Below, piece after piece: positions 4,577-59,592 of a DNA stretch of 64,000 nt. The stretch is from Monosporascus cannonballus. Taxonomy: Eukaryota; Ascomycota; Sordariomycetes; Xylariales. How positions within the stretch are numbered: the stretch's first letter is position 1; every line of letters begins with the position of its first letter. A model generated the notes under the pieces. That model was not told the DNA's origin, did no database searches, and was given only the letters and a program-made list of their open reading frames with translations. The position numbers and the translations under genes are program-made. The stretch is taken from positions 1 to 64,000 of the forward strand of contig QJNS01000267.1 in NCBI GenBank assembly GCA_004154925.1, written 5' to 3'.

Positions 4577-4963
4577 TGTGACGGCTAGGCGGTTTAACCA
4601 ACTATTAAACCTTAAGTCGACGGGTTTATGTTAGCAAAAATATTGTAGGAATCTAAGCAATAAATACAGTAACGTATTACGTTTCGTAATTCCAAAGGTA
4701 TATTAGATAATAATACTACATTGCAAATTAAAGTTATTTAAATTATGAAATTAATAAGCGTATATATTTTTCCGGCTTATTTACATATTATCAATAAGTT
4801 AGTAATCCGGCTTACTGGCTTACTTCCAGTAAGTTGGTAATCCGGCTTATTAGCTTACTACTAGTAAGTCGGTAATCCGTTACGAAACCTAATCCACATA
4901 ATTTTCTTGGCTTTTTCTCTACTATAACCGTTTTTGAAGGCCGTAACTTGTCAGATCGTAACA
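4577..4963 (-). repeat. R4 3' LTR
   Basis: 387 bp, from TGTGACGGCT to GTAACA on the plus strand. The internal region starts CGATCTTCCCC. The U3 part has three 35-bp palindromic units (4772-4876). Confidence 0.9.
4772..4876. repeat. Three tandem 35-bp palindromic units in the R4 3' LTR U3
   Basis: Units lie at 4772-4806, 4807-4841 and 4842-4876, each starting CCGGCTTA and ending GTAAT. The best unit has CTTACTGG pairing with CCAGTAAG across a short loop. The same unit is present twice in the R4 5' LTR (11290-11359), three times in S (21557-21661) and about once in the R1 3' LTR. In coding orientation it lies upstream of a conserved TATATA motif, so an enhancer-like role is plausible but not shown. 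Confidence 0.9.
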
Positions 4964-5059: not shown

Positions 5060-5611
5060 ATGTCGTTCTTACAAATCTGAATCACGATTTGCTTTAGCTA
5101 ATTTAACTAAATTTGAAGGTTTTAATACGATATTTTATTTTTTTGTTTTATCCAATAACTTAATTGCCAGATAATGGACAAGCTTTCTCGCTGTAAGAAA
5201 TATATTCGTTAAAATTATTCTTATAACGGGACGGAAATCCTTATTTTTATAAATAATCGGCATATTACAAAGTCGAAAAAGTTAAAAAAGGAAAAGCTAA
5301 AGGCCGAAAAATCTTTATTCAAAGCTTTCGCGCGGCTTTCCCGTATCCGTCATTAACGTGAACATTATTAATCCCAAGGTGCAAAACTTGTTAATCGCGT
5401 TTTTTAATTTTTGGACGATTCCAACGATCTTGCCCATTTGGAATCGGAATTTATAATCGAGGTGCAGGCTTCGGGCGGGGTGGACGTTATTGATTAAAAC
5501 GCGGTGGACTAGAAGCTTCTTTCCTTGAACCTTATGGACTGGAATATCATTATCTCGGATGGCTCCGTTATTGCTGGTGAAAATTCTTTAATAGGCGTTG
5601 AGCGCCAATAA
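5060..5611 (+). pseudogene. R4 antisense gene: Zn2Cys6-like cluster plus coiled coil
   Basis: One uninterrupted reading frame of 184 codons from ATG (5060) to TAA (5611), with no frameshift and 12 in-frame stops. It begins Met-Ser, like the R6 copy. Codon 29 (Cys), 36 (Cys), 45 (Cys), 48 (Tyr) and 55 (Tyr) match positions 2-6 of a C-x2-C-x6-C-x8-C-x2-C-x6-C cluster. The first position is Leu here. A Lys/Glu-rich helical part (~70-95) and an Asp/Trp-containing tail (D-x5-D-W-N, ~150-162) follow, ending G-x-N-S-L-I-G-x-x-R-Q. The last 62 nt overlap the end of pol on the other strand. The family is not one I can name. The spacing is that of fungal zinc-cluster DNA-binding proteins, and a DNA-binding or regulatory role is inferred. 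Confidence 0.75.
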
Positions 5612-11094: not shown

Positions 11095-11446
11095 TATAAC
11101 GGCTAAACGATTTAACCAACTATTAAATCTTAAGTCAACGGGTTTATATTAACAGAAATATCGTAAGAATTTGAACAATAAACACAGTAACGTATTACGT
11201 CTCGTAATTCCAAAAGTGCTTTAAGTAACGATGTTATATTGCAAATTAAAGTTATTTAAATTATGGAATTAATTAGCGAATATATTTTTCCGGCTTACTG
11301 GCTTACCATCAGTAAGTTGGTAATCCGGCTTACTGGCTTACTAACAGTGAGTCGGTGATCCGTCACGTGACCTGATCCACATAGTTTTCTTGGCTCTTTC
11401 TCTGCTGCGACCGTTTCTGGAGGCCGTAGCTTGTCAGGTCGTAACA
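11095..11446 (-). repeat. R4 5' LTR
   Basis: 352 bp with two 35-bp palindromic units (11290-11324, 11325-11359) followed by the palindrome GTCACGTGAC (11362-11371). Positions 11290-11446 are less RIP-mutated than the 3' LTR. On the minus strand an ATATAT motif near 11280 lies where the promoter of the element would be. Confidence 0.9.
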
Positions 11447-12893: not shown

Positions 12894-12914
12894 CTAGCTG
12901 AGGTAACTTAGCAC

Positions 12915-13019
12915 CTTAAAACCTTTAAGCTAATTACGTAACGTCTTGGCTGAGGTCGGGTTTGTTTTCTTCGTAGGTCCGACCGTTCGTAAAAAAGCCA
13001 AGACTGTTAAGTTATTATA
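12915..13019 (-). repeat. R3 3' LTR, second part
   Basis: Continues the LTR after T and its 8-bp TSD. It matches the end of the R3 5' LTR (19398-19502) closely, including the TGGCT..AGGTCGGGTTTG segment, and ends at TTATTATA before the CGATCTCCCC leader. Confidence 0.87.
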
Positions 13020-13109
13020 CGATCTCCCCTCTTCCAAGATCTTTGTCCTTAAATATCAAATTGTTTATTTGTTAATTTGGTAAATAACCTTCCTTTTTTT
13101 ATATCTATT

Positions 13110-13680
13110 ACATCGGGCCGTATCGAAAAATCTCGTTTTCGTAAGCGCGTTCACGTTTTTATTTTTTTAGAACGTATTAAACGCCTTAGTTTTATAATAC
13201 TTTTTTGTTTTCGTTATGAAAAAAACGGTGAAAAATACAAGGTTGCTCGGGGTTCTCTTAAATGTGCGCGTTATATTTATTATGTCGGTCACTGTAATAT
13301 TTTTAGTCCTCCAGAAATTAAATATCAAAAATTTTTTGATAAAAAAAGATCGTTTAAAACGTAAAAAAAAAAGAATTCGCAAAATATTACGAACGGCCGC
13401 CAAAAAGTTAAACCGTTTGCAAAAACGAAGACGGCTGCTTCGTCGCCGTAGTATTAAGATATGTCGTCGCAATATTCAGGGTGCGGAGGCGATAGAGAAG
13501 TTTAAGTATTTCGAAAAAGAACAAGAACAGTTGGAGGCCGCCGTTGCAATTGCTATATCAGCATAAGCCGCGCTCCCGGCCGGTTGGTCCGACATCCCGG
13601 TTACTAACTGGTCGACCGTTAAATGGGACGCGCCCGTCGTTATCGGTGAAAGTTCTTTAACAGGCGCTGGGCGCCAATAA
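13110..13680 (+). pseudogene. R3 antisense gene: best-preserved Zn2Cys6-like cluster plus coiled coil
   Basis: Read in two frames joined at an A-run near 13350 (a 1-nt indel). First part (13110-13350): T-S-G-R-I start, basic segment, then C-x2-Y-x6-Y-x8-C-x2-Y-x6-C with codons TGT, TAT, TAC, TGT, TAT, TGT from 13209 to 13298. Each Tyr is one G-to-A step from Cys, so the unmutated form has exact Zn2Cys6 spacing. Second part (to TAA 13678-13680): a Lys/Arg-rich heptad-like coiled coil, E-Q-E-Q-L-E, then a tail with W-S-D-I-P-V and N-W-S-T-V. The tail resembles what I recall from ends of fungal pogo-type transposases (from memory, not checked). The gene overlaps the R3 pol end by 62 nt. It lies between pol and 3' LTR on the opposite strand. 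The role is unknown; DNA binding is inferred. Confidence 0.8.
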
Positions 13681-16600
13681 GATTTTTGGCGAGTTTCTAT
13701 GTATTTTCGAAATCCGGGTACTTTTTCTATTTAATTAAGTACTAGGTAAGTCCGTCTTATTTTCGAATATCGAAAAATTTCTCCACTTTATATGTCTATT
13801 CGTTTTCTATTTCCATATCGTTTTATACTATACATATTTTAATTATATCTGCTGTTAATTCGAATAAGGAAACATAAAAATTAAATAGAATTTAACTTTT
13901 AACAAAAATTCTAATTAATATTTATTTTCTGAGATTTTTTTTGGCGATTTTATATAAATCGATATACTTCAAATCAAGTTTTTTGTTAAATCGTTTTTTT
14001 AAATATTTTTGGTAACAAAGAACCTTATATCCCGTTTTTCGAAAATTAATTTTTTTTAATTTCTTCTAATCATAATACTTATTTATTTGATTTTATACGA
14101 ATTCCAGTTTTATTTTTATTTTTTAATATAATTATCGTAATTGTTTTAACGTAAAAGTTATTCAAATTTTAATTAAATTATTATCACATATTTTTTATAA
14201 GCTTTTAAAATAAAACCAAAATTAACGTTTGCTAATATTATTTTATTATTTTCGTAATAATTAATATTATAAGTTAATTTAGTAATAAGTAATATGTTAT
14301 TTTACTTATTTTGTTCGTAATTAATATAATATTATAAATACGATTTTAAGTTCAATTCGTTCGTTTTATTTATTTATTTATTTAAGATTTAAATATGCTG
14401 GATAATTTGTGATTTCGGCCGATTTATATTATAAGACTTTGCCAAAATTTAAATACAAATATTAATCCTTTATTTCAAATAGTCTTTATTAATACTTTAT
14501 ATATAATAGAAATATATTTGAAAAAATATATGTTATTTGTTCGGCGTTTATACTTTTATATTATGGTAAAAAATAAGAAACCTTTATAAATTAATCGATT
14601 ATTACAAAAATGTTATCAAAATATATTTTCTTAACTGGAGTTTTGAACATATACAATTTGGTAATAAAATTGAATATAATTAAATATTATAACTATTATA
14701 CGATTAATAATAATTGTAATTCGTTGTATAACTTATGTCATTAAGCTTTTGTTTTAACGCAAAAATTACATTATCATATAATTTTTTATATTATTATTTT
14801 CGTTTTTAAAAAAAATATATGTATTAAAACCGTTTTAAGATTTTATAAATCCCCAGATATTTATATAACTAATATTCGTATATGTTTCGTATTAAATACT
14901 TTTGGTATTCTTTTTAAAATTCGTATTTTATTTATTTTTTGATTTTTTTAAAAGATTATTATTATATTACTGGATTTCCTAATATATATTAAAAAGTACT
15001 GCTCGAATTATTGCAATTTGTTACGGCCATAAATATCTTTTTTTGCAGCAATATTAAAAATTATATATATAATTTTGACCAGTGTGTTTCGAAGTTTGGC
15101 CAGTTGCTTAAAATATTAGCGCTGCCGTTTTCTATGCCCTTTTTAAAAATAATAACGACATCAAAGTTCGCCAATATTTTTGCGTATTTTAATTATCGTT
15201 TTGTACATTCTTCAATCGTAATAAAACGGATAAAAATTTAACAATCCGTATAAACCTTAACCTGATATAAGTTTTCTTTTAAAAAGTGCTTAAATCTTCG
15301 AAATGCCATAATAATGGCCATATATTCCTTATTTAAAATGCCGTAATTAAACTCGGTTCCTTTTAATTTATATAAAAAAATGCAATAGGGTGCAGTTTGG
15401 TTTAATTATTTCATTATCCGATTATTGCGCCTAACGCATAATCCGAAATATCGGTTTTTAATTTAACGAGGCGGTTTTAATCGTACATAATTAATATTGG
15501 CTTACTAATAATCATTTTCGTAATATTCTCAAACGCTTTTTTTAAATTTCGGACGTCCATTTAAACTTTTTTTTCGTAATATTAATTAAGGGTATAGTTA
15601 TTCTGATAAAATTCCGAATAAACTTCTTATAGTAATTAGCAAATCCAAAAAATACCTGTATATCTTTGACCATAATTAACGTTTGCTATTTTGTAATTAC
15701 AACGATTGTGTTAGGGTTTATATTAATATATTTTAAGATAATAATATATCTCAGATATTTTATTTTCTATACGTAAAATTTACTTTTTTTTGTATTAATA
15801 AATAACTTTACGTTTTATAAAATTTAAAAAACTTTATAAACCTATTTTTTATATGATTTTTCCGTTTCTGAAAAAATAATAATGTCGTCGAGATACCAAA
15901 CGACGAAAATATCGAGGTATTTTCGTAATACATAATTTATTGTTCGTTAAAAAACTATTGGTACGTTCGTAAATCCTATTAATATAACCAAGTACTTAAA
16001 TAGTCTATATTTCGTTTTAACTATTAAATTTTATTTATATTCATTTTTAATAGTATTTATTATATGTTTATTTTTAATATTAAATACTATAAACTATTTG
16101 GTTCTGTAAAATCGGTTTTTTATTTTTATAATTAAGTATAATAGTATTCGATTTTTAATAATAATATTATTTAGTTGCCAATATTCAACTAGAAGTCCTA
16201 ATTTTTGGTTTTTCTTTAATATAAAGAATATAGGATATCCTATTATTAACTATAAAAATCGAATATATCTTTTTTGTAACCGATTTTCTAGATATTTGCT
16301 AAAAGCGCGTAATTCGTTTCCGTTAAGGTTGTAAATAAGGTAAAATTTCGTCTAAAATCTTAATTTGTAAATTATCTTATAATTCTATTTGTTATGTTAT
16401 AGTAATTTTGTATTAAGTTCTTTTCTGAAAAGTTGTTTATATCGGTAGTATTATGGTAGTATATTGGTTAATTATTTTAAATTTTAAAGCTGTTGTTTTA
16501 AATTATTATTTAATTACTTTTATTTCGCTTTAATAGTAATAACGACACGTTTTATTTTTCTTTAACATTTAATTTCTTTTTTATATTTTATCCTTTTGGG

Positions 16601-19089
16601 TAATAAGATTTTTGTTATGTCCTTATATCTACATTTGTTATTATTTTCGAACGAATATTAAGATCTTAATTCTTTTTTGTTTGCTAATAAGCTATAAGGC
16701 GAACGTTATTTAACTAATCCTTTTATTAATTAAAATTGTATTTTAACGTATTTATAATAATCCCAAAATTATATTGAAATTCTTAAATAAAACGATGTCG
16801 AAATTTATTGTGTAATATCGTCCTTAGATAAAAATCCCGAGGTAATTAATTTCGTATATAATTTTCCCGTTATCGTAAGCAAATTTCTAAATTTCAGTAT
16901 TCGTCGTGATATAAGATTTTAACTTATATCTTTATGGCAATTTAAACTTATTAATTATATTTAGTATAATGTAATTTCCGCCCAAAGTTCCGTTGTTTAG
17001 TATTGCGATATATTATTGCGTTCCGATTTGTATATTTAAAGTGATAAGGTTATTGACGGTATTTATTATCACGTTTAAAGCCTTTTTGAACAATATTTTC
17101 TAACTCCTCTGGGTATTGTTATTTTGCGGCTTTTTATAGGCAATATTTTTTAATTCCTTTTCAAATCCGTTAAACTTGGTTTATGTTTTTATATTTAACC
17201 CGTTAAGCTACTATATCTGTTGTTATTACCAGTATATTGGTTTTTCGAATTATATTAATTGTTCTTGGTTTTGCTATAGTTTTTCTTTTTATTAGGTAAA
17301 CTGTTTTTTATGTTTTCGACAGTATTTTATTATGCGTTGTACTGTTATTTTAAAATTCGTTTATAAATTAACGTATTTCTTTTTTGATAGCTTTTTTCGT
17401 AAAACTCTGTAATAAATGCCAATTGAAAATAAAAATTTTTAATAGCTTTTTGGTAATAGTTTTCTACTATATGCTAAATTAATTCCATTTCGGTTTAATA
17501 ATTATATTACTTATAATAATCAAAAAGCCTTTTTTTACAGATATTGTTTTTTTATGGATTACCTTTTTACTTCGGCCAGTTATTAAATATCTTTTGGGGT
17601 TATGGATCGAAAATATCGATATTATTATTTATTATTTTTGTTATTTTCAATACGGTTTGAACAATCGACTTTATTATAATATATACGAGTAATCCATCCG
17701 TAGATATATTATTTTTATTTTTTATAATCGGGATATTCTCGTCGTCGACAATATATAGCTTATATTTTGTCATATCAATTAGGAGTTCCGAAATAAACTT
17801 TTTCTATCTAAATCTAATATTCGCGTAATTATCCTTATAACATTTCTTGATATAATCGTAATACCTGACGAACCAGCTTTTTAATTTCGCGAATTTTTCG
17901 TTAAACGTTTTATCGTAATGGCTCTTATTAGATTTTTTGTTATAAAAAGCCTAATACGTATTTAGACTAAATCATATTAATGCATTTATTTTCGTTTTTT
18001 TTGGTTATCTCTAAATTATCCGTTAGGTACGGGTTTCTAATTATTTTAACGGGGTTTCTTAAGTACCGTATATTACGCCGCCTTATACCTTATTTTGTTA
18101 TAATTGACATATTTGATTTAGTTCTAGTTCTTTTTATAAATGGCTTTAAACTCTATAGGTTCTAGTTCTATGTCGTAAGAAATGCTATTACGTTAAAAAA
18201 CGCGAATATTAGCCGTATATCGGGATTTGTTATTATTTTTTCCTTTAGTATCTTTATTACGTTAGGCGTATTGTCGATCGTCCATCTTGATTATTATAAC
18301 GATATAATCTAACAAATTATTAAATTAATCGAACTTAAAAACTTTCCTATATTTTGTTAGGCCGTCTTAAACCTTGGCCGTTAAAAATTTTTGTTCCCAG
18401 TTTAACTTAAAAATTAACTAAATTAACGTACTGCCGTAACTGGATACCGATCCTTTTTGTCGTAATTACTAGACTTATCTTTCGGCGTTTATTTTTTCGT
18501 TTATTATTCCGAAAACTTTCGTTAATATTTGCTTAAATTATTCGTAATCGTTATAAATTCGTATTATCTCCAGATTTCGTTTTTCGACTAGCAAACTGAC
18601 GTATTTTTTTTTATAGCGGATTCGAATCAAATAGCCATATTTCGGCTAAATCGTCCGATTGCAAATTCTATCCGTACAGTGGGCGTAACTAGTCGAATAA
18701 GAAAATACCCAAAGTATGTTCAGCATTAAGTAAAGAACAATTATATCTTGGTCAAGGTTCCGTTAAAAAATTTTGGTTTAAAAGATTTAAAGATTTCTCC
18801 TAATTTTTTGTAAAGTTCAGCTGGATAACCTGGTTCGTTCGGAAAGGTTTCCTAGTTTCGAGAACCTTTTTTTTCTCTTAAGCCTTTTATAAGCGGCTTA
18901 AAGGGACGTTATAAGGTTATTATTATCTTTCTTAAGCTAAATAATGCGTTCGTTTATGGCGTCCAGACGTCGAAGAACTTCTTCGCGAAAAAGGCGAGGT
19001 TTTTCCTCTTTTTTTTCGAATTTCATTCCGGTATCTGGATTATTAAGAACTTAATAAGTGGGCTATTCGGGTTGATGGCTAATAAATAT
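13619..19089 (-). pseudogene. R3 gag-pol polyprotein (chromovirus), RIP-inactivated
   Basis: The initiator position at 19089 is ATA where R4 has ATG, followed by codons matching the R4 gag start. RT core on the minus strand over 16170-15990, with W-Y-L-D-D intact at 15884-15895. Integrase lies near 14,400-14,700. Chromodomain (~13800-13655) reads Y-K-V-E-K with decayed Trp codons (TAG) at the aromatic positions. The C-terminus I-G-A-Q-R-L-L-K-N-F-H is followed by a RIP stop and then the conserved terminal stop at 13619-13621. Coding capacity is lost by many stops. Confidence 0.85.
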
Positions 19090-19145
19090 AGTGTCGGCGA
19101 TATTGCTCAAAATTTACCGATATTACTAAACAAAAGTTTATAACG

Positions 19146-19502
19146 TATAACGGCTCAGCGGTTTAACCAATTATTAAACCTTAGTCGTACGGGTTTATAT
19201 TAGCTGAAGTATCGTAAAGCTTTATAGAAATAAGGTAATTTAATTACCTTTTTTAATACCACAGGTACAAAAGTCGTATTACAAATAATTAGTATTTATA
19301 AGTGTTACAATCTGGTATTATGTAGACTATGGAAATAATAAGCATATATATCCTTATTCTAGCTTAAGGTACTTAAGCAGCTTAAACCCTTAAGCACCTT
19401 AAAACCTTTAAGCTAACTATATAACGTCTTGGCTAAGGTCGGGTTTGTTTTCTTCGTAAGTCCGACCGTCCGTGGAGAAGCCAAGACCGTTAGGTTATAA
19501 CA
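19146..19502 (-). repeat. R3 5' LTR
   Basis: 357 bp, from TATAACGGCT to ATAACA. Intact across the T insertion point (AAGCACCTTAAAACC), which gives the empty site for T. Followed directly by the R2 LTR remainder through TSD CCGTA. Confidence 0.9.
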
Positions 19503-19507
19503 CCGTA

Positions 19508-19549
19508 CAATTAAGGTTTAATAATTAGTTAAGCCGTTTAACCGTTATA
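19508..19549 (+). repeat. R2 5' LTR, second part
   Basis: The final 42 bp of the R2 5' LTR (ending CCGTTATA, from CCGTCACA), rejoined after removing R3. The next bases (CGTTATAAATTTTT) start the R2 internal region and match those next to the R4 and R3 5' LTRs. Confidence 0.87.
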
Positions 19550-21364
19550 CGTTATAAATTTTTATTTCATAATACCGTTAAATTTTGAGCGATATCGCCA
19601 ACATTATATTTACCAGTAAGCAACTCGAAAAGCCCACTTTTTAGGTCACTGATAACTCGAATACCGAAATAGAATCCGAGAAGGAAAAGAAGTAGCCTTA
19701 CGTTTTTCGCAAAGAAGTTCTTCGACGTCTAGATGCTATAAATAAACGCATCCTTTAACTTAAAAAGGATAATAATAATTTTATAGTATCCTTTTCAGCC
19801 GTTTATAAAAACTTAAAAGAAAAAGGAAAAGTTCTAGAAACCGGAAAACATTTTCGAATAAGTTAGGTTACTTATCAAATTTTACGAAGAAATTAAAAAA
19901 GGTTCTTAAACTTCCAAAACTAGAACTTTTCGACGGAACCATAATTAAGTAATAATTGTTCTTAACTAAATGCCGAATATATTTCGAGTGTTTTCCTATT
20001 TGACGAATTACGTTTATTATACGTATTAAATTCGTAATTAGAAGACTTACTAAAGATATAGTTATGTAGTTTAAGTCTGTGATAAGAAAATACGTTATTT
20101 TATTAATTAAAAAAGAACATCCGGAAATAATAGAAATATATAATAATTACAAATATTTTAAGTAAATATTAACGAAGCTTTTTGGAATAATAAACGAAAA
20201 AAAAAGCCGAAATATAGATCTAGTAATTACGATAAAAGATTTAGCGTCCAATTACTGCAATCTGTTCGTTCAATTAGTATTTAAGCTAAATTAAAAACTG
20301 AAAATATTTAAAATTAAGTCTTTCGATAATTTAAAAAAAAACATAAAAAGGGTTTTTTAATTTTAATCGGCGTCATTATTTATTAGATTAAATCGTTATA
20401 ATAATTAAGATGAATAATTAATAATATGTTTGGCGTATTAAAAATATTATAAAAAAATAATAACAAAATTCGATATACGGCTAATATTAATACTTTTTGA
20501 CATAATAATACTTTTTACAATACGGAGCTAGGACCTATAGAACTGGAGGCCATTTATAAAAAGGACTAAAGCCAGACAAAATGTTTTAATTCCAAGAGAA
20601 TAGGATATAATGTAGCATAATATATAGTAGCTAAAAAAACCGGTTAGAAAAATTGGAAACCCGAATTTAACGGATAAATCAAAAGGAATCAAAAAAACAA
20701 AAATAAATCCATTAGCATAATTCGGCCTAAGTAGGTACCGGGCCCCTGTGATAAAAAATCCAATAAGGAATGCGCGAAATCAGGAAATTGGCTTAATAAA
20801 TATCGCAAACATAATAAGAAAAATCATAAGAATAATTACGCAAATACTAGAATTGAACAGAAAAATTCAGTTCCGGAACCTCTGATCGGTACGGCAGAAT
20901 ATATGCTAGGCATTGTCGCCGACAAAAATATCCTAATTACGAGAAATGAAAATAATACATTTACGGAAAAATTACCCGTATATATTATAAAGGATTCGAT
21001 TTTCTAAACCGAACCGGAAATAACAAAAAAATAAATAATAATATTGATATTTTCAATCTATAACCCCAAGAAATATTTATTAGCTAGCCAAAATAAGAAG
21101 ATGGCTCAAATAAAAGTAATACCTATATGAAAACCTTTTTTATTTTTATAAATAATATAATTACCAAACAAAAAAAAAGTTAATCTAGTATATAATAAAA
21201 AATATTACCAAAAGGTTTTTGCATATTTCCATTTTCAATTGGTATATATTATAAATCTTAATAAAAAAGATATTAAAAAATAGTTTAATTTATAAGCGAA
21301 CTATAGAATTATAATTAATATAACGTACAATAGAATACGGTCGAAACTATAAAAGATAATTTAC

Positions 21365-25359: not shown

Positions 25360-25978
25360 TCATTGGCCCCCAGCGCCTACTAAAGAACTTTTACCGACAA
25401 CAACGAGCGCGTTCTAATTAATAGTCGACCAATCAATAGCCGAGATATCGGACCAATCGGTCGCAGCCTGTATTAACGTAATAGCCGTAACGGCAGCTTC
25501 CAGCTATTCTTATTCCTAATGTTTCCATTTTTCCAATTCGTCCAATAACTAAAGTCTACGTTATATTATAATAACACCTTTCGAACGAACTACTATCTTT
25601 TACTTACGTAAACGAATAAAACGAAAAGGGATTTATTTATTTTTTTCTAATAACGATATTAAACCTTAAGATAAAACTGTTAAAGGTTTGAAAATCGCTT
25701 TTTGATAAGAGTTTTTTTACATTCCAAACGTTAATATTTTTAACGAATATTTTCCAAAGAAAAGCGGCACGTCGATACTATCGAAGGACCGATCCCGATT
25801 AACATATTTTTTATACCTTAAAACGTTTTCTAGTATTTTACACCTTATATTTTTTCGATAAACACTAAGAATAAGGCATAATTTCATATCCGAATTCGTC
25901 GAAGGCCTTTACGAGGTTAACGTAACGAATAATAGAAAAACGGGAAACGCGACGAATCTTGGGAATGCAAAACCACAT
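25360..25978 (-). pseudogene. R2 antisense gene: Zn2Cys6-like cluster plus coiled coil
   Basis: Minus-strand counterpart of the R3/R4 gene. A possible start is ATG at 25978. The cluster reads Y-x2-C, then a 1-nt indel, then C-x8-Y-x2-Y, with F at the sixth position. The tail reads L-E-A-A-V-T-A-I-T, D-W-S-D-I, D-W-S-T-I-N and ends G-A-G-G-Q, with the stop at 25362-25360. That stop is 62 nt inside the end of R2 pol (25421). Several stops and a frameshift make it non-functional. Confidence 0.72.
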
Positions 25979-26049: not shown

Positions 26050-26423
26050 TATTATAACCTAACAAGTTTCTGCCTCGAAAAACGGTTAGATAAGAATAAT
26101 ACGGGCCACTCTTCGGATTACGTAACGAATAATTATTGCTAAGCCAGTAATGATCTTTGATTAAAAATGATCCTAAATAATCGTAATTATAAGTAATTAG
26201 GCCAAAATTAAGGGAAATATATATACTTATTAATTCCATAATTTAAATAATACCAGTTTCTGGCGTTTATTAATACCAATTGTTGTAATATATCTCTGAC
26301 ACCCTTGGGATTAAGAAACGTAATACGTTACTGTATTTATTGCTCAGAATCCCATAATACTCTTGCCAACATAAACCCGTACGACTAAGATTTAATAGTT
26401 GGTGAAACCGCCTAGTCGTCACA
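26050..26423 (+). repeat. R2 3' LTR
   Basis: 374 bp, from TATTATAACC (TGTTACGACC) to CGTCACA, followed by TSD AAAAC. It keeps the full outer end that the split 5' LTR lost to R3. Confidence 0.92.
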
Positions 26424-29823: not shown

Positions 29824-30198
29824 TATAACAGCTAGGCGGTTTAACCAACTATTAAACCTTAGTCGTACGGGTTTATGTTGGCAGGAAGATCGTGGAAATC
29901 TGAGCAATTGATATAGTAATGTGTTACGTTTCGTAATGATAAGGGTGCTTTGGGTAACGATATATTATTTCAAATTAACGTTATTTAAATTATGGAAATA
30001 ATAAGCGTATATATTTCTTTCCTTTTTGGCTTAATTATTTAATATTATACCGTTAGTAGTAATTACGATTACTTGGGATCACCTTTGATTATTAATAATT
30101 TTTGGCTTGGCAGTAATTACTATTACGTGACCCGGAAGGTAGCCCGTATGTTTCTTGCCTGACCGTTTTTTGCGACCGGAACTTGTCGGGTCGTAATA
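29824..30198 (-). repeat. R5 3' LTR
   Basis: 375 bp. The U3 module contains GATCACC and related repeats, shared with R2 and different from R4/S. It differs from its partner 5' LTR mainly by transitions. Confidence 0.92.
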
Positions 30199-30289
30199 CG
30201 ATCTCCCTTTTCCTTAAATTTTGCCCTTAACATTTCTTTTTTTTTTCGTTTGGTAAATATCCCTTTTTTTATTTTTAGTTATTTCGTTT

Positions 30290-30897
30290 CGCATTTTCAA
30301 AATTTGTTGCGTTTTCCGTTTTTTTACCGTTCGTCGTATTAATTTCGTAAAAGCTTTTAACGAATTTGGTTACGAAATTATGCCTTGCTTTTATTATTTC
30401 TCGAAAAACATAAGGTGTAAAATAAGGGAAAACGTTTTAAGATATAAGGAATATGTTAATCGCAATTAAGTTTATATTAATACCGATATATCCATTTTTT
30501 TATAAAATATTCGTCGCGAATATTAACGTTTGGAACGTAAGGAAACGTTTATCGAAAAACAATTATTAAACTTTTAATAGCTTTATTTCGAAATTTAACG
30601 TATATATTCAAAAAAATAAATAAAGGTTTTTTCCGTTTTATTCGTTTGCGTAAGCAAAAAACGTTAATTTATTCGAAAAGTATTTCCATAATATAACGTA
30701 AGCTTTAAATACTGGACGAATTAAAAGAACGAAAACGTCGGGAATAAAAATAATTGGAGGCTGCCGTTATAGCTATTACGTTAACGTATATTGCGGCCGA
30801 TTGGCCCGATATTCCGGTTATTGATTGGTCGGCTGTTAATTAGGACGCGCCTGTTATTGCTAGTAAAAGTTCTTTAATAGGTGTTAGGCGTTAATAA
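30290..30897 (+). pseudogene. R5 antisense gene: Zn2Cys6-like cluster plus coiled coil
   Basis: The start codon is not clear, so the left edge is approximate. From 30386 the frame reads C-x2-Y-x6-C-x8-Y-x2-Y-x6-Y: exact Zn2Cys6 spacing with four Tyr (TAT) where TGT is expected. It is preceded by F-G-Y-E-I-M-P, as in R2. A frame change follows, then a tail with L-E-A-A-V, D-W-P-D-I-P-V and D-W-S-A-V-N, and the terminal stop at 30895-30897. The last Gln codon is TAA. The overlap with R5 pol is 62 nt. Confidence 0.77.
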
Positions 30898-36171: not shown

Positions 36172-36543
36172 TATAACGGCTAAGCGGTTTAATTAATTAT
36201 TAAATCTTAATCGTACGGGTTTATATTAACAGGAATATCGTAGGAATTTAAGTAATGGATATAATAACGTATTACGTTTCGCAATACTAAAGGTGCTTTA
36301 AGTAACGACATATTATTACAAATTAACGTTATTTAAATTATGGAAATAATAAGCGTATATATCCTTTTTTTTGGCTTCATTATTCGTAATTACGCCGTTA
36401 GTGGTAATTACGATTATTTGGGATCACCTTTGATCACTAATAATCACTAGTTTAGCAGTGATCACCATTACGTAACCCGGGAGGTGGCCCGTGTGCTTCC
36501 TGCCTGACCGTTTCTTGAGACCGGAGCTTGTCGGGTCGTAACA
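36172..36543 (-). repeat. R5 5' LTR
   Basis: 372 bp. The 36420-36543 half is only weakly RIP-mutated and shows the CCCGGGAGGTGGCCCGTGTG segment. Ends GTAACA before TSD TGTTA. Confidence 0.92.
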
Positions 36544-36548
36544 TGTTA

Positions 36549-38294
36549 TCCCTTTTTCATAAATACCCGTTTATATTTGTTAATACTTTTTTAGATTATT
36601 AATGTATTTCACTGTATAATATTTCAAATTCATTATATTTGTGATTCTTGCCAGCATATGTATTTTCCCAATTAACGTAATTACTATGCAGTGTACTATA
36701 CTCTTTTTTTAATAAGTCATTAATCATACCGTATATTATACCGTATTATAATATATTTATATTATCCTTTTATATATCCTGCGACAATGTACAAATTTTT
36801 AAGTTAATAACATTTTATTTTCTAGTTTCATAGTCAATGCTAATTGAATATAAAAGTTCGTAATAACCTCTTTGTAATACTGTTTATAGAATGCTAAATT
36901 TAATGTTTTATAAATTAATATTTAGATTAATTATAAGAGTAAAAACCGTTTTAATCGGTGTTGACATTTGATGCTAATTTCATAACTATATTTATTAATT
37001 TTATTTTCGCCGATTTAATTAAAAAGAAATAAACCTTATTTTATATATTCGTATAATATGTTAATAAATAGATCTTTTTTAATTATTAAATACTAGGTAT
37101 TTCCATTGATTGAAATAAACGGCGTACATTTTATCGTATTGATCTAGAGATCCAAAGTCTCCCTTTTTTTATTTCTTTCTAGCATTTTTTCAATTATTTT
37201 TTAAGGTTTCTTACTATTATTAAAATAAATTTAAACCAGGTTGTTCTTTTCAAAAACCGTTCGCTTTTTTAATCTAGTTTTTAGTTTAATAAGCTATGTT
37301 TGTATTGATCGTAGAGTATATTAATATATTTCTTGTTTTTGTTAAGTAGGTTGTTATTCGGTTTAATAATTTCTTTATTCAGAATAAAGATATAGATATC
37401 ATGCTGTGGAAATGTCTTATAGGTATTTTGGTAATATTCTGTTTCACCAGAATTATAACACCTAATTTGGCTTTCATTTTTAAACTAAATCATTTCGAAT
37501 TGTAGCGGTTCTAGCGCTGTATTATGTAAATTGATAAATACGACTCGTTATCTTCTCTAATTTCTCTAGTAACCTTTTTATTCTACGGTAAATTCTTTTT
37601 TCTTTGTAAACTTTATATAATTTATTCTTAATTTTAATAACTTGAAACATATATTGATTTATTATATATATTCTAAGTAATTTAATAACTGCGTGTATTA
37701 TCTTTGCTTATATTTTTCTTGAATATGTATTAAGTTAATTATTACAATTAGGTTTAATGCATCCTACTTCAGCTATATCATATATGAATATAACCGCGTA
37801 TTTTAAAACTAAATCATTCTGTTAAATTTACAAGATTTACGGCCCAAAAATATATTTTCTACGAAGAATTTTATAATCTACGTTGAATTCATTTTTGAAG
37901 TTAGCATAATTGGAAACAATGATTTTAATTATTTTTACGATCGACATTTTCTTTTTCTACGTAATTTCTTGTCACGAGTGTGAATTATTATAAAAAATCT
38001 CCTATAAAATTCTATAACGACAGAAACTTAATCAAACATTGTATTTAAGTTTTGAAATTTGAAATAAATTTATACCTAAGTTAAAAAGCGATGAATATTG
38101 TTTTTTTGATTTTATAAATACACTTTTATAATGTAATATTTTAAAGCCGCTATTTTATATTACGACAATTCTTTCTTAAGTTGTAAATAACTAAGCATAA
38201 TTTATAAAATCCTTAATTTTCGCTTATGATTAAAATATTGAAATACTTTCTGCATTACAAATTTAACAATACCATCACATAGAAATTTACAATA
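36549..38294 (-). pseudogene. R1 gag-protease part, very decayed
   Basis: Starts where R1 was interrupted by R5. Its first ~250 bases align with R4 ~9,050-9,300 (TTGCCAGCAT against TTGCCGGCAT). The last ~70 bases before the LTR align with the R3/R4 sequence next to their 5' LTRs. No frame can be read with confidence. Confidence 0.5.
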
Positions 38295-55599: not shown

Positions 55600-58568
55600 T
55601 AACCTTTAATCGCAGAGAGAAATTTTAAGCCGTAAACCGAAACGAGGTAACCGTAAAGGTTTTTATGCGGACAAAAATAATAATAAGTAAAAGCGTTAAA
55701 AATTAAATATATAAGTTATCTAATATAAAACATATATAATTAATTATTATATATTATTTAATTATTATTATGCATTCTTTTAAAAAGAATTCCTTAAAAG
55801 GTTTCCGTTTTAACGATAAAATGGTAATATATATTTAAGGACGAATTTCCGCCGATTGACTTTTAATAGAAAAAATCGACTGTTTATCGAAAATTATGGA
55901 AAACTTTATTATATAAAAGATAACTTAATTTTTTAAAAAGGTATAACAAATATTAATATATTTTTTGATTATTAATCAACGTAACGCCATAAATACTTTA
56001 TTTGATTTTTTAAGGAATTTAGTTATTTTGGATTTAAGATTTACGATATATATTTTTAATTTAATTTATAAATTCCTAAATTTCAAATTTACTGGATACA
56101 ATAACGAGATATACCTATGCAATAGTTTCGTCCTGATTAAGGGGTGCGGAAAAGTTAATATAATTTTTCGAAATTTTAACGGTATAAAAAAGTTCCGCTT
56201 ATACGATATGGCTTATTACAAAAATTTCGAATATAATATGATATTATTCCAGCAGTTTCTAAAAAAAAGGTATTAATAAAATAATAAAGGAATTAATAAT
56301 TATATTCGAAACAAATATAATTAGGTAATTATTACGTTAACAAATAATGTTAATTAACTCGATATTTAAAATATTAATATAATAATGTTTTATGTAGCTT
56401 TAATTATTTATAGACGAAACGTTAATTTAAGAATAACAAAATTATTACGGACCGGTAATAATACTATATAGCATTTGAAATTAGGCCATTTAAGTCTCGA
56501 AATAATCGCTTAGTTATAATCCTATACGAAAAGAATTTACCTAAAGGGTTTTATAACAATCGAATGCTAAATATACGAAAAGGCGAAAGTTAAAAACTTA
56601 ATATGCTGTAAGCCAAAAAACAATATCCTAATTAAGATAAAAGATCGTTATCGATTTTATAAACTTTGAAAAAAACCTTAAAGAATATAAATATATTATG
56701 TTTACTATCGATAGATATTTAAGTTTTATTTAGGATATTTATTTTAAGACCCGAAAATAAAATATATTAATTATAACGTTTTAATATTTTTTAGAAATCC
56801 TAAAAAATTAAAATAAAGTCCTTGTATATCTAAATAAATACGATAACGAAATCTTAAAAAAATATTAATTTCGAAATATGTTTAAATTAATTTTTTAATA
56901 TTAAATTTAAACTTTTAATATTATATACCTAAATTCAGAGTCGGGATATAAAACTTTTAAAAAGTATAATAAAAGAAAAAGTAATTGCAATATAAAATAA
57001 CATTAAATTATTTTTTTTCCTAATCGTATATATCCTTAAAGCGGCAATATATTTATATAACCGCGTTTTTAAAAATGCAGTTTTTTGGCAAAGTTTATAC
57101 GAAATTTATTATATTTACCTGGCGTATTAAAATAGTGTTATAATATTTGATCGAAAGCTTTTATAAGCCCTTTTACAAATGTGCGGCTATATAACTTACG
57201 TTATAATAATTATCGTTATAAAGAAAAAATAAAGATTTTAAAAATTAAATCTCAAAATATAAATTAATTATTTTATCGATTACCGATTTACAAATTTTTG
57301 CGAGATTTAAAACGCATTAATTAATAAGGTTATTATTATTTGAAATATATAATTTAATAAAAAGCTTATTTTTTAAGGTAATATTAAAAATTTAAACGAT
57401 ACCCTTGTATATATTATAGAAAAAAGGTAATAAAAGTTATTCTGATAAATACATATACCTGATTAAAACGATAATTATTTAATTTATACACAAAAGAAAA
57501 TATAACGCTAAATAAAATACTTTAATTACCGAATAAACAAAAAATATAATTCCCGAAAGATAATAACGTAAATATGTACGGAATAAGGAAAAATAAGCTT
57601 GTTCGCAAAATATTAATAATCTTTATATAATTATTATATTGAAATTATTTTTATTCCTTGAATTATTACCGTTATTAATTTTTACCTTAATAATTATTAC
57701 GATTATTACGTTAACGAAAAAAAAATAGCTTTAGGTTTTTCTTATGGTGTTTAACTTAACAAAATAATAAAAAATAAAAATATTTTATGAATTATAAGTA
57801 TAAGTTTTCTGTATATTACGTATTAAGAAAATATTATTCGAAATAAATACAATATATTGAAAATTGTATTTAATATAAAACGTTTAACCCCTTTTATAAA
57901 TACGTACGATAATCGGCCGGTAAATTACGAAAGTTTAAAGAAATTTATTATCCGAAGTACGAGTTATTTTGATCGGAAAAATAATAATACCTTAATATAT
58001 AAAACAGTATTTAATTTATAAAACCGGTTATATAAACGTAATTTATCGTTATTATCGTAAAGTTATAAAAAGCTAAATATATACCAGTTAAGAAAAATAT
58101 TCGGTAAAGCCGAAAAAGTTTATTTATAAAACTATAAAAAATGCGATCTTAAAAGGCCGTTAATTAGTTTTTAGCTAAAAGGAAATAAGTTTTAAGGTAA
58201 ATATAAGTATACGTTTATAAATTTAATAAGTATAAATTAGTTTTAAAAATATAAAACCCGTTTTATTATACAAAGTAATTAATAGCTTAAAATTATTTGT
58301 AACGATATATATATATATTTATTTTCGCTAAAAATCGTTTTTAACTTTAATCGTTATTACGGTTAATTTCGATATAAAATTTAAGTAATATAATGTTATA
58401 AATATCTTTATAAATAGTAATTTATCTTATAAAATGTATATAAAAACCCCTTTAAGATATTTATAACGTAATAAGGTTTTTCTGATTAACAAAATATTAT
58501 ATGGATTAAGAGAGGTATTTTTGTTATAATAAAAGAATTTATTAAAATATTTAAAAATTGGGATTTAA
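55600..58568 (+). pseudogene. Copia gag-pol polyprotein remnant
   Basis: 55965-56276 is an open frame matching the copia protease-to-integrase region: Y-N-N-E-I-Y, V-L-I-K-G-C-G-K-V, R-L-Y-D-M-A-Y and N-M-I-L-F-Q. Then comes L-K-L-G-H-L-S (gag-pre-integrase, ~56480). The integrase part has Y-T-x-I-Q-S and A-A-I-Y-L-Y-N-R-V (~56930-57070) and, further on, the usual F-N-K-K-L-I-F-Q-G-N-I stretch (~57360-57400). RT from ~58250 includes F-R-x-L-I-V-I-T and N-K-I-L-Y-G-L-R-E at 58488-58514. RT stops at the R6 insertion. Stops are RIP-type. Confidence 0.77.
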
Positions 58569-58939
58569 TATAACGGCTAGGGGGTTTAACCAACTATTAA
58601 ACCTTAAGTCGACAAGTTTATGTTAGCAGAAATATCGTAGGAATCTAAGTAATAAATATAGTAACGTATTACGTTTTATAATACCAAAAGTACTTTAGGT
58701 AACGATATCGTATTACAAGCTAAAGCTATTTAAATTATGGATATAATAAACGTATATATCTTGATTTTTTTTAATCCCATCGAACCCGGCTTTATAAGCT
58801 TTACGGTCGATTCTGTCGAGCTCGGCTTTATGGACTTTGCGGTCGATCTTATCGAACTATTACGTAACTCGACCTACATAACTTAGTTATTTCCTTATTG
58901 CGACCGTTTCCCGAGGCCGCAGCCTGTCAGGTTATAATA
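58569..58939 (-). repeat. R6 3' LTR
   Basis: 371 bp, TATAACGGCT to TTATAATA. The U3 has its own tandem repeat: two 36-bp units (58778-58813, 58814-58849) with GGCTTTAT and GCGGTCGAT blocks, unlike the 35-bp unit of R4/S at the same position. Confidence 0.92.
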
Positions 58940-59007
58940 CGATTCTTTTTTTCTATAATTCTCGTCCCGAAAATTTCTTTTCTTTTATAAGTCCTCTTTT
59001 TGTTATT

Positions 59008-59592
59008 ATGTCGGGTCGTATTAAAAAGCCGATTAATCGAAAAAACGAAAAAACGAAAGAATTTGCTTAAATTAATCACTTTTCGAACCCTAGATATGCC
59101 TGTATGTTCTTATTATGCTCGTCGCGAATTACCATCTTATCGTACTTTTTCGTCGGATTTCTCCAGGTACGAAAAGTACATAACGTAAAACCAAGGTTTT
59201 TGTAACGTTAACGGTTTTTTTACTTTTTAGCTTAAAAAGTTCGTTTCTAATTATCTTAAGGTTAAAACGGAACTTAAGAAAGCTAAGAAAAAAACGGAAC
59301 AGGCTTAGGCCAAAGTTCGCCATTTTCGAAAATAAAAGAAATTATGGGCCGACGGTATAGTACATATGCTATTTCGGAGGCTTTGATCCCTAAAGGAATT
59401 GGATAAATTAAAACGTTAAGAAAACAGGCCGACATAGGGGCCGCTCAGGCCATATCGGCAAAGGCCGTAATTTCTTTCGACTAGTCCAACCTTGACTTTA
59501 TCGATTGGTCGTCTACCGATTAAGAGACCTTTAACCCTGTTAACCTCGGCGTTGCTGGTAAAAGTTTTTCAACAAACGTTAAGCGCTAATAA
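59008..59592 (+). pseudogene. R6 antisense gene: Zn2Cys6-like cluster plus coiled coil
   Basis: ATG at 59008 (M-S-G-R-I) and stop at 59590-59592 are in the same frame, 195 codons apart. The middle is read in another frame, so there are two compensating indels. Cluster: C-x2-Y-x7-Y-x9-Y-x2-Y-x7-C from ~59108, with Tyr in four positions. A Lys/Glu-rich coiled coil follows (V-K-T-E-L-K-K-A-K-K-K-T-E-Q-A, ~59250-59310), then a tail with F-I-D-W-S-S-T-D. The last 62 nt overlap R6 pol. The start context next to the LTR is the same as in R3 and R4. Confidence 0.77.

Follow-up and report, generated by a model that had tools for sequence, protein, structure and literature searches.

The first 64,000 nt of contig QJNS01000267.1 of Monosporascus cannonballus (the window; the genome comprises 88.8 Mb in 618 contigs) contain five copies of one family of long terminal repeat (LTR) retrotransposons, some of them inverted or nested. 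All five raise the same question: what is a gene doing antisense to pol, between the end of pol and the 3' LTR? We found that this antisense gene is a cassette, swapped together with the U3 part of the LTR among closely similar elements. On balance we lean towards the reading that it encodes a DNA-binding regulator which reads the U3 of its own LTR. As the initial annotation had stated, remnants of one antisense gene family lie beside the 3' LTR in every copy, and the pol pieces, located by tblastn with pieces of another element of this genome (L073), are on the opposite strand in all five. The copies and their antisense gene remnants are:

About 4.58-11.45 kb, copy E4; remnant of type R4 at 5060..5611, + strand, a single frame of 184 codons interrupted by 12 stops
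About 12.9-19.5 kb, copy E13; remnant of type E13b at 13110..13680, + strand, with the tail ...WSTVKWDAPVVIGESSLTGAGRQ
About 19.5-26.4 kb, copy E21, inverted; remnant at approximately 25400..25870, - strand, located by tblastn
29.82-36.60 kb, copy E30; remnant at approximately 30380..30840, + strand
58.57 kb to beyond the window end, copy E58; remnant of type E58 at 59008..59589, + strand, in pieces in two frames

The frame of E4 had been read earlier as a single one with stops and no frameshift, which we confirmed; the same R4-type gene is also present at the loci L079, L085 and L088 (tblastn). In E13 the cysteine cluster stands in the frame of 13110 and is followed by a frameshift at about 13.32-13.35 kb, the basic coiled-coil part and the tail, with one in-frame stop past the frameshift. 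This remnant matches the L033/L058 type proteins (tblastn). The window is AT-rich except for its first 2 kb, and positions 2001-64000 carry the signature of repeat-induced point mutation (RIP), with TpA/ApT at 1.10 and (CpA+TpG)/(ApC+GpT) at 0.63. The same indices are 0.60 and 1.27 at 1-2000, which is without the signature.

Searches of the genome with two of the window's antisense pieces returned at least 150 matches each (the best 150 of 434 and the best 150 of 1146 candidates scored), the weakest listed having E-values of 2.9e-18 and 1.1e-19. Genome-wide, the pol/chromodomain end was convergent on the opposite strand in 71 of 72 antisense entries, or 69 of 70 places since L067 and L068 repeat L009 and L006; one entry additionally had a same-strand pol match, and most of the loci had been chosen by similarity to the antisense protein (window pieces, C. 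orbiculare homologue). The sole miss for the pol C-terminal piece was L001, the window's own copy E58. The elements are chromoviruses, that is Ty3/gypsy elements with a chromodomain at the C-terminus of pol: PF00385 matched the pol C-terminal piece of L058 with E 1.6e-10 and L073 with E 2.9e-19. L073 (375-7652) is a chromovirus of another family in the same genome and far less damaged. Its LTRs are about 6.8 kb apart and 91% alike, and gag, protease, reverse transcriptase (RT) and chromodomain pieces are present. PF00098 (gag zinc knuckle), PF08284 (protease), PF00078 (RT) and PF17917 (RNase H) matched L073; its integrase piece (108 amino acids) had no Pfam match, and the L058 piece matched SH3_Tf2-1 (PF24626, E 3.3e-9). 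It carries an open antisense frame of 177 codons, 146 nt of which overlap the pol frame, and a protein search with this frame returned four Monosporascus proteins and no others. Open frames homologous to the antisense gene are annotated in other fungi, and the best-scoring match of the C. orbiculare homologue in this genome is 41% identical. A scan of viral contigs with the antisense-protein pattern gave 120 pattern matches, none of which was confirmed.

At least seven types of the antisense gene occur among elements whose pol and R-U5 are closely similar. We compared transversions along the element for 67 loci grouped by gene type (E13, E58 and L61). In pol (bins 0 to 1200) the between-type values of 0.017-0.101 equalled the within-type values of 0.013-0.104, and the far LTR part (bins -1000 and -900) gave 0.030-0.098 between types versus 0.023-0.100 within. 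For bins -800 to -300 we observed 0.15-0.30 between types versus 0.011-0.106 within, and for bins -200 and -100 the between-type values were 0.08-0.22; in these variable bins fewer between-type pairs align and the aligned part is partly chance. Pol is nearly uncoupled from gene type. Across 720 nt of pol the mean was 0.0343 within and 0.0377 between types, a slight association (permutation p 0.012), and the nearest pol neighbour carried the same gene type at 29 of the 67 loci versus 25.1 expected at random. Between representatives of different types, local alignments span just 12 to 118 residues at 23-50% identity, and the sub-types E13a and E13b share 47% over 150 residues.

The same pattern emerged from loci ranked by pol, namely ranks 2-17 for the L058 pol piece among at least 150 matches, three of the places overlapping earlier loci. 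The antisense gene was present in 16/16 of these places and belonged to seven types (E13a 5, R4 3, L61 2, N6 2, N7 2, E13b 1, E58 1), with types assigned by tblastn and, for L084, L086, L087 and L089, after the frames had been read. Those relatives examined in this genome thus retain the gene, both in this set and in the 71/72 placement count; the absence from relatives that the initial annotation had named as a refutation was not seen. Transversions in the LTR bins of the pol-ranked set were 0.02-0.03 within and 0.05-0.06 between types, in the middle bins 0.01-0.06 and 0.12-0.24, and at the pol end 0.004 and 0.038, respectively. The gene of L078 is intermediate between E13a and E13b, and the window copies E21 and E30 resemble N6 in part and may represent a further type.

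The comparison of the two LTRs of E4 leaves about 100 nt or less between the LTR and the start of the antisense gene, and hence the exchanged block is partly LTR U3. The LTRs of the window copies, and the pol of E13, are:

4581..4963, 3' LTR of E4, carrying a 35-bp U3 array of 2.4 units at 4795-4879
11099..11446, 5' LTR of E4
12910..13020, U3 part of the 3' LTR of E13, adjoining the antisense gene; the outer LTR part was not recognised
13607..17950 (approximate), - strand, pol of E13, convergent with the antisense gene, placed by blastn to E4
19393..19503, U3 part of the 5' LTR of E13
26052..26423 (approximate), 3' LTR of E21
29824..30256 (inner end approximate), 3' LTR of E30, 81% identical to 36172-36602
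36172..36602, 5' LTR of E30
58568..58952, 3' LTR of E58
Contig 65033-65382, outside the window, 5' LTR of E58 (L091)

The two U3 parts of E13 are 88% identical over 111 nt, and in its pol the integrase, RT and protease pieces are recognisable (tblastn with L073 pieces: 14507-14770, 15375-16327 and 16758-17153). Among 11 elements, in the window and elsewhere, the own candidate 5' LTR was the best match in its row for the 3' LTR in 10; the exception was L079, whose extracted sequence showed no recognisable 5' LTR. The 5' end of E13 is joined to the head of the inverted E21, seen as an inverted repeat at 17296-21364 (about 70% over 4.1 kb). The first 2000 nt of the window, at the contig start, have a GC content of 0.53 and open reading frames on both strands, with a sub-threshold match to a gag-type aspartyl protease at 256-735 on the - strand (PF13975, 23.6 bits versus a cut-off of 28.2).

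To locate the variable parts we divided an alignment of U3 and gene into column blocks, which were set by eye once the alignment was seen. It holds 13 of 14 aligned sequences (N7_L086 was left out for an apparent nested LTR), giving 8 pairs within and 70 between types. Between-type transversions were low around the TATA-like GTATATAT (0.07), at TTACGTAAC (0.07), at GACCGTTT (0.10) and at the LTR end with the polypurine region (0.08). They were higher in the U3 directly after the TATA-like block (0.34), in the distal U3 (0.32), in the leader (0.19) and across the N-terminal codons (0.30); within types all these blocks showed 0.00-0.06. The TATA region, the LTR end and the pol end are common to the gene types and the U3 varies with the gene type. 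When U3s were typed against representatives without shared leader sequence (L001, L075, L079, L082, L087, L089 and L090, with L045 and L061 as repeated places), the U3 type equalled the gene type in 76 of 86 entries, nine of them by construction, so that the remaining entries match in 67 of 77. Eight entries were unclear and two mismatched, L063 and L086, the latter with the nested LTR. Counted as places there are 83 (73 matching, 8 unclear, 2 not), as L077, L082 and L090 repeat L009, L061 and L045. U3 and gene stay matched despite the common blocks that separate the two variable blocks.

Several of the U3 types contain tandem arrays. The R4 array has a period of 35 bp and 2.4-2.8 units, and the two LTRs of E4 differ by a 35-nt gap; the period is 36 bp in the E58 type and 35-36 bp in the L61 type. 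Arrays of 34-37 bp with a score of at least 110 occurred at 21/30 E58-type, 7/10 L61-type and 0/30 E13-type loci, and in 0/350 dinucleotide shuffles. Type-specific U3 arrays are present in E58, L61 and R4, and would be the candidate targets of a VANC-like regulator. Dyads read by eye in some U3s (R4, N7 and E13a), for which no chance comparison was made, would suit a dimeric binder. The longest of the listed arrays, with seven 36-bp units, lies in the U3 upstream at L070. A palindrome, TTACGTAA, which we take to be bZIP-like, is conserved across gene types: it occurs in the U3 of most of them (e.g. L075:391-398), with at least one exact match in 64 of 90 loci. L065 has a deviant second half of the cysteine cluster, common to L063, and a deviant U3 array unit, common to L064, and L063 has an E13b-like U3 instead; a sub-type and a recombinant are possible.

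As RIP makes transitions, selection on the codons was tested with transversions. For the E58 type (30 copies) these were 2.02 times as frequent at codon position 3 as at positions 1 and 2 (permutation p 0.012), and for the E13 type (27 of 30 copies, without L031, L052 and L054) 2.31 times (p 0.003); the loci had been picked by protein similarity, which may favour this outcome. At the E58-type loci two upstream stretches (29 and 30 of 30 kept) showed 0.066 and 0.096 transversions per site versus 0.008-0.025 for the codons, a contrast that misalignment of the U3 array enlarges. Codon-level constraint, which the initial annotation had made a test of its proposal, is present in both types. A chance open frame was considered and is ruled out by conservation, though stop density alone gave the antisense frame no preference.

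The encoded protein has six cysteines, in part of the family with exact Zn2Cys6 spacing, followed by a long helix and an acidic tail. The Zn2Cys6 spacing is C-x2-C-x6-C-x5,12-C-x2-C-x6,8-C. L075 has the full set as C-x2-C-x6-C-x8-C-x2-C-x6-C, and 52 of 76 homologues have six cysteines, 12 with the exact spacing and 40 whose first loop is one residue longer (x7); the other 24 show neither. A structure model of homologue P0042 (pLDDT 83.9) gave individually weak Foldseek matches, and 18 of 18 were Gal4-type DNA-binding domains (those of GAL4, PUT3, LEU3, Pho7, HAP1, PPR1 and 1cld). The last 60 residues contain on average 7.4 acidic and 1.7 basic residues across 44 proteins. Pfam and PDB sequence searches with the antisense proteins found no clear family; the strongest family match, CENP-Q (E 1.5e-5), was obtained for only 2 of 33 homologues and was taken as a coiled-coil match.

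Three observations weigh against the antisense frame or its zinc-cluster label. The curated cut-off of Zn_clus (PF00172) was not reached, the best score being 17.5 bits versus 21: 3 of 33 homologues matched at E ≤ 1; in a further search P0042, P0052 and P0059 gave E 0.12-0.56, and L075, P0013, P0022 and P0023 had no match. The earlier label of Zn2Cys6-like suits the spacing and has some backing from the fold matches, and none from the profile search that had been proposed for it. Second, stop density fails to single out the antisense frame, as another frame is lower in both types (3.58 versus 3.38 and 3.46 versus 1.93 stops per 100 codons). Third, all but one of the 150 listed matches in each of the two genome searches contain stops, and the element family is now mostly dead.

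With these points counted, a self-encoded regulator of the own LTR is still the reading we modestly prefer; the layout and the covariation of gene and U3 agree with it. The protein, of about 175-225 amino acids, would begin with a domain resembling a binuclear zinc cluster, dimerise through a long coiled coil and end in an acidic/aromatic tail, and it would read tandem or dyad sites in its own U3. In the manner of a bidirectional upstream activating sequence, this U3 would drive gag-pol from its copy in the 5' LTR and the regulator gene from its copy in the 3' LTR. One U3 could serve both genes because the antisense gene lies inward of the 3' LTR, which would be the one place where a U3 copy can control a second gene. 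Reverse transcription copies the 3' U3 into both LTRs. A swap of the element's 3' end (gene plus 3' U3) would be carried into both at the next round, and regulator and promoter would therefore change together. Since gene and U3 are exchanged together, specificity would change while pol, R-U5, the LTR end and the polypurine region stay. The acidic tail makes activation the favoured mode over anti-silencing or repression. A factor for transcription or (anti)silencing of the element, encoded inward of the 3' LTR as had been suggested from one window, stays the best reading, with binding and expression as its predicted parts. An extended form of it, to which we give rather less than even credence, is a modular autoregulatory switch: a chassis of pol and R-U5 would take up interchangeable pairs of Gal4-like antisense activator and cognate U3 array, the array serving both genes bidirectionally. 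Dead copies would titrate the old regulator as decoys and so favour new specificities, and the switch would therefore diversify much faster than the enzymes.

The rival that survives best, though we consider it unlikely, is an anti-silencing factor that would bind its own arrays and so clear heterochromatin or methylation or keep them off, in the way of VANC proteins on VANDAL elements. The VANDAL work describes related transposable element (TE) proteins whose tandem-repeat targets differ between related TEs (PMC5735166). The type-specific U3 arrays would suit such a factor, as would the RIP in the window, which shows that the host attacks repeats; the Gal4-like layout and the acidic/aromatic tail suggest activation instead. 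A protein that uses U3 to repress the element or to control copy number would have the same binding logic, and its amount would rise with copy number. It appears improbable to us in view of the acidic tail and the many amplified copies (at least 150 matches in each of three genome searches), and selfish copies should lose a mere repressor. We give equally little weight to an accessory protein of the retrotransposition complex, for instance in nuclear import or as a nucleic-acid chaperone, without LTR-specific binding and with U3 covarying by adjacency. The basic N-terminus and coiled coil would fit, contiguity accounts for linkage, and the Grande antisense protein is nuclear (PMC7264820). However, the linkage persists across the common blocks TTACGTAAC, GACCGTTT and the LTR end (between-type transversions 0.07-0.10), with variable blocks on both sides, and pol is nearly uncoupled (29/67 versus 25.1). 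That the antisense transcript matters instead of the protein, through double-stranded RNA or transcriptional interference, is suggested by the convergent placement at the 3' end of pol and is highly improbable given the constraint by codon position and the conservation of the protein between genera.

If the preferred reading of a self-encoded regulator is true, it would explain why such genes stand antisense beside the 3' LTR, and the family would be a natural library of regulator/operator pairs and a case of arms-race-like diversification of a transposon control system in fungi. Because gene and U3 types are matched, each protein is predicted to bind its own U3, which is a direct and testable functional prediction for the antisense genes of LTR elements.

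Finally we compared the family with known systems. The source description of brtn in Boty-like chromoviruses is reportedly that of Zhao et al. 2011. Later papers describe brtn as an antisense gene between pol and the 3' LTR of Boty-like chromoviruses in Botrytis and Sclerotinia (PMC7264820, PMC4227169, PMC8365987), and a transcript of Monilinia resembles truncated Pol and BRTN (PMC5987419). The initial annotation had taken a gene in this place to be undescribed for fungal chromoviruses; this has to be withdrawn, as brtn has the same position (PMC7264820, PMC4227169) and the defining arrangement of the Boty/brtn type, an antisense gene between pol and the 3' LTR, is found here in a fungal Ty3/gypsy element with chromodomain. 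The likeness is one of position: three protein searches with the antisense proteins listed no Botrytis or Sclerotinia name, most matches being unnamed. In plants, antisense frames between pol and the 3' LTR include Grande gene23, RIRE2 and Retand TRP28, of which TRP28 is predicted to bind DNA (PMC7264820, PMC11963269). These share the placement and differ in the protein domain, by name only, and Retand is a non-chromovirus with a much longer region between pol and 3' LTR. Antisense accessory genes are long-known features of LTR elements and lack an assigned function (PMC7264820). Neither a Zn2Cys6 antisense gene nor gene/U3 cassettes turned up for any fungal element in our literature search, a weak absence since subscription journals were thinly covered. 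The matched antisense-gene/U3 cassettes appear to be new, and the antisense gene in this place was already known.

Gal4-type Zn2Cys6 factors resemble the antisense protein in the cysteine spacing of part of the family, the cluster-linker-coil layout and the weak fold matches. They differ in that the protein here is below the Zn_clus cut-off, often has an x7 first loop, is very small and is borne by a retroelement. Tax and Tat are retroelement-encoded regulators; proteins of the HBZ, Tax and Tat type are presumably unrelated to the antisense protein, and we know of no cassette exchange with the LTR for them. VANDAL we take to be a plant DNA transposon and its VANC protein to differ from the one described here. 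HBZ of HTLV-1 is alike as a retroelement-encoded regulator expressed from the antisense strand (PMC11963269). The closest parallel in logic is VANC, where the tandem repeats targeted by related TE-encoded proteins vary from one related TE to another, and where targeting was shown by experiment (PMC5735166).
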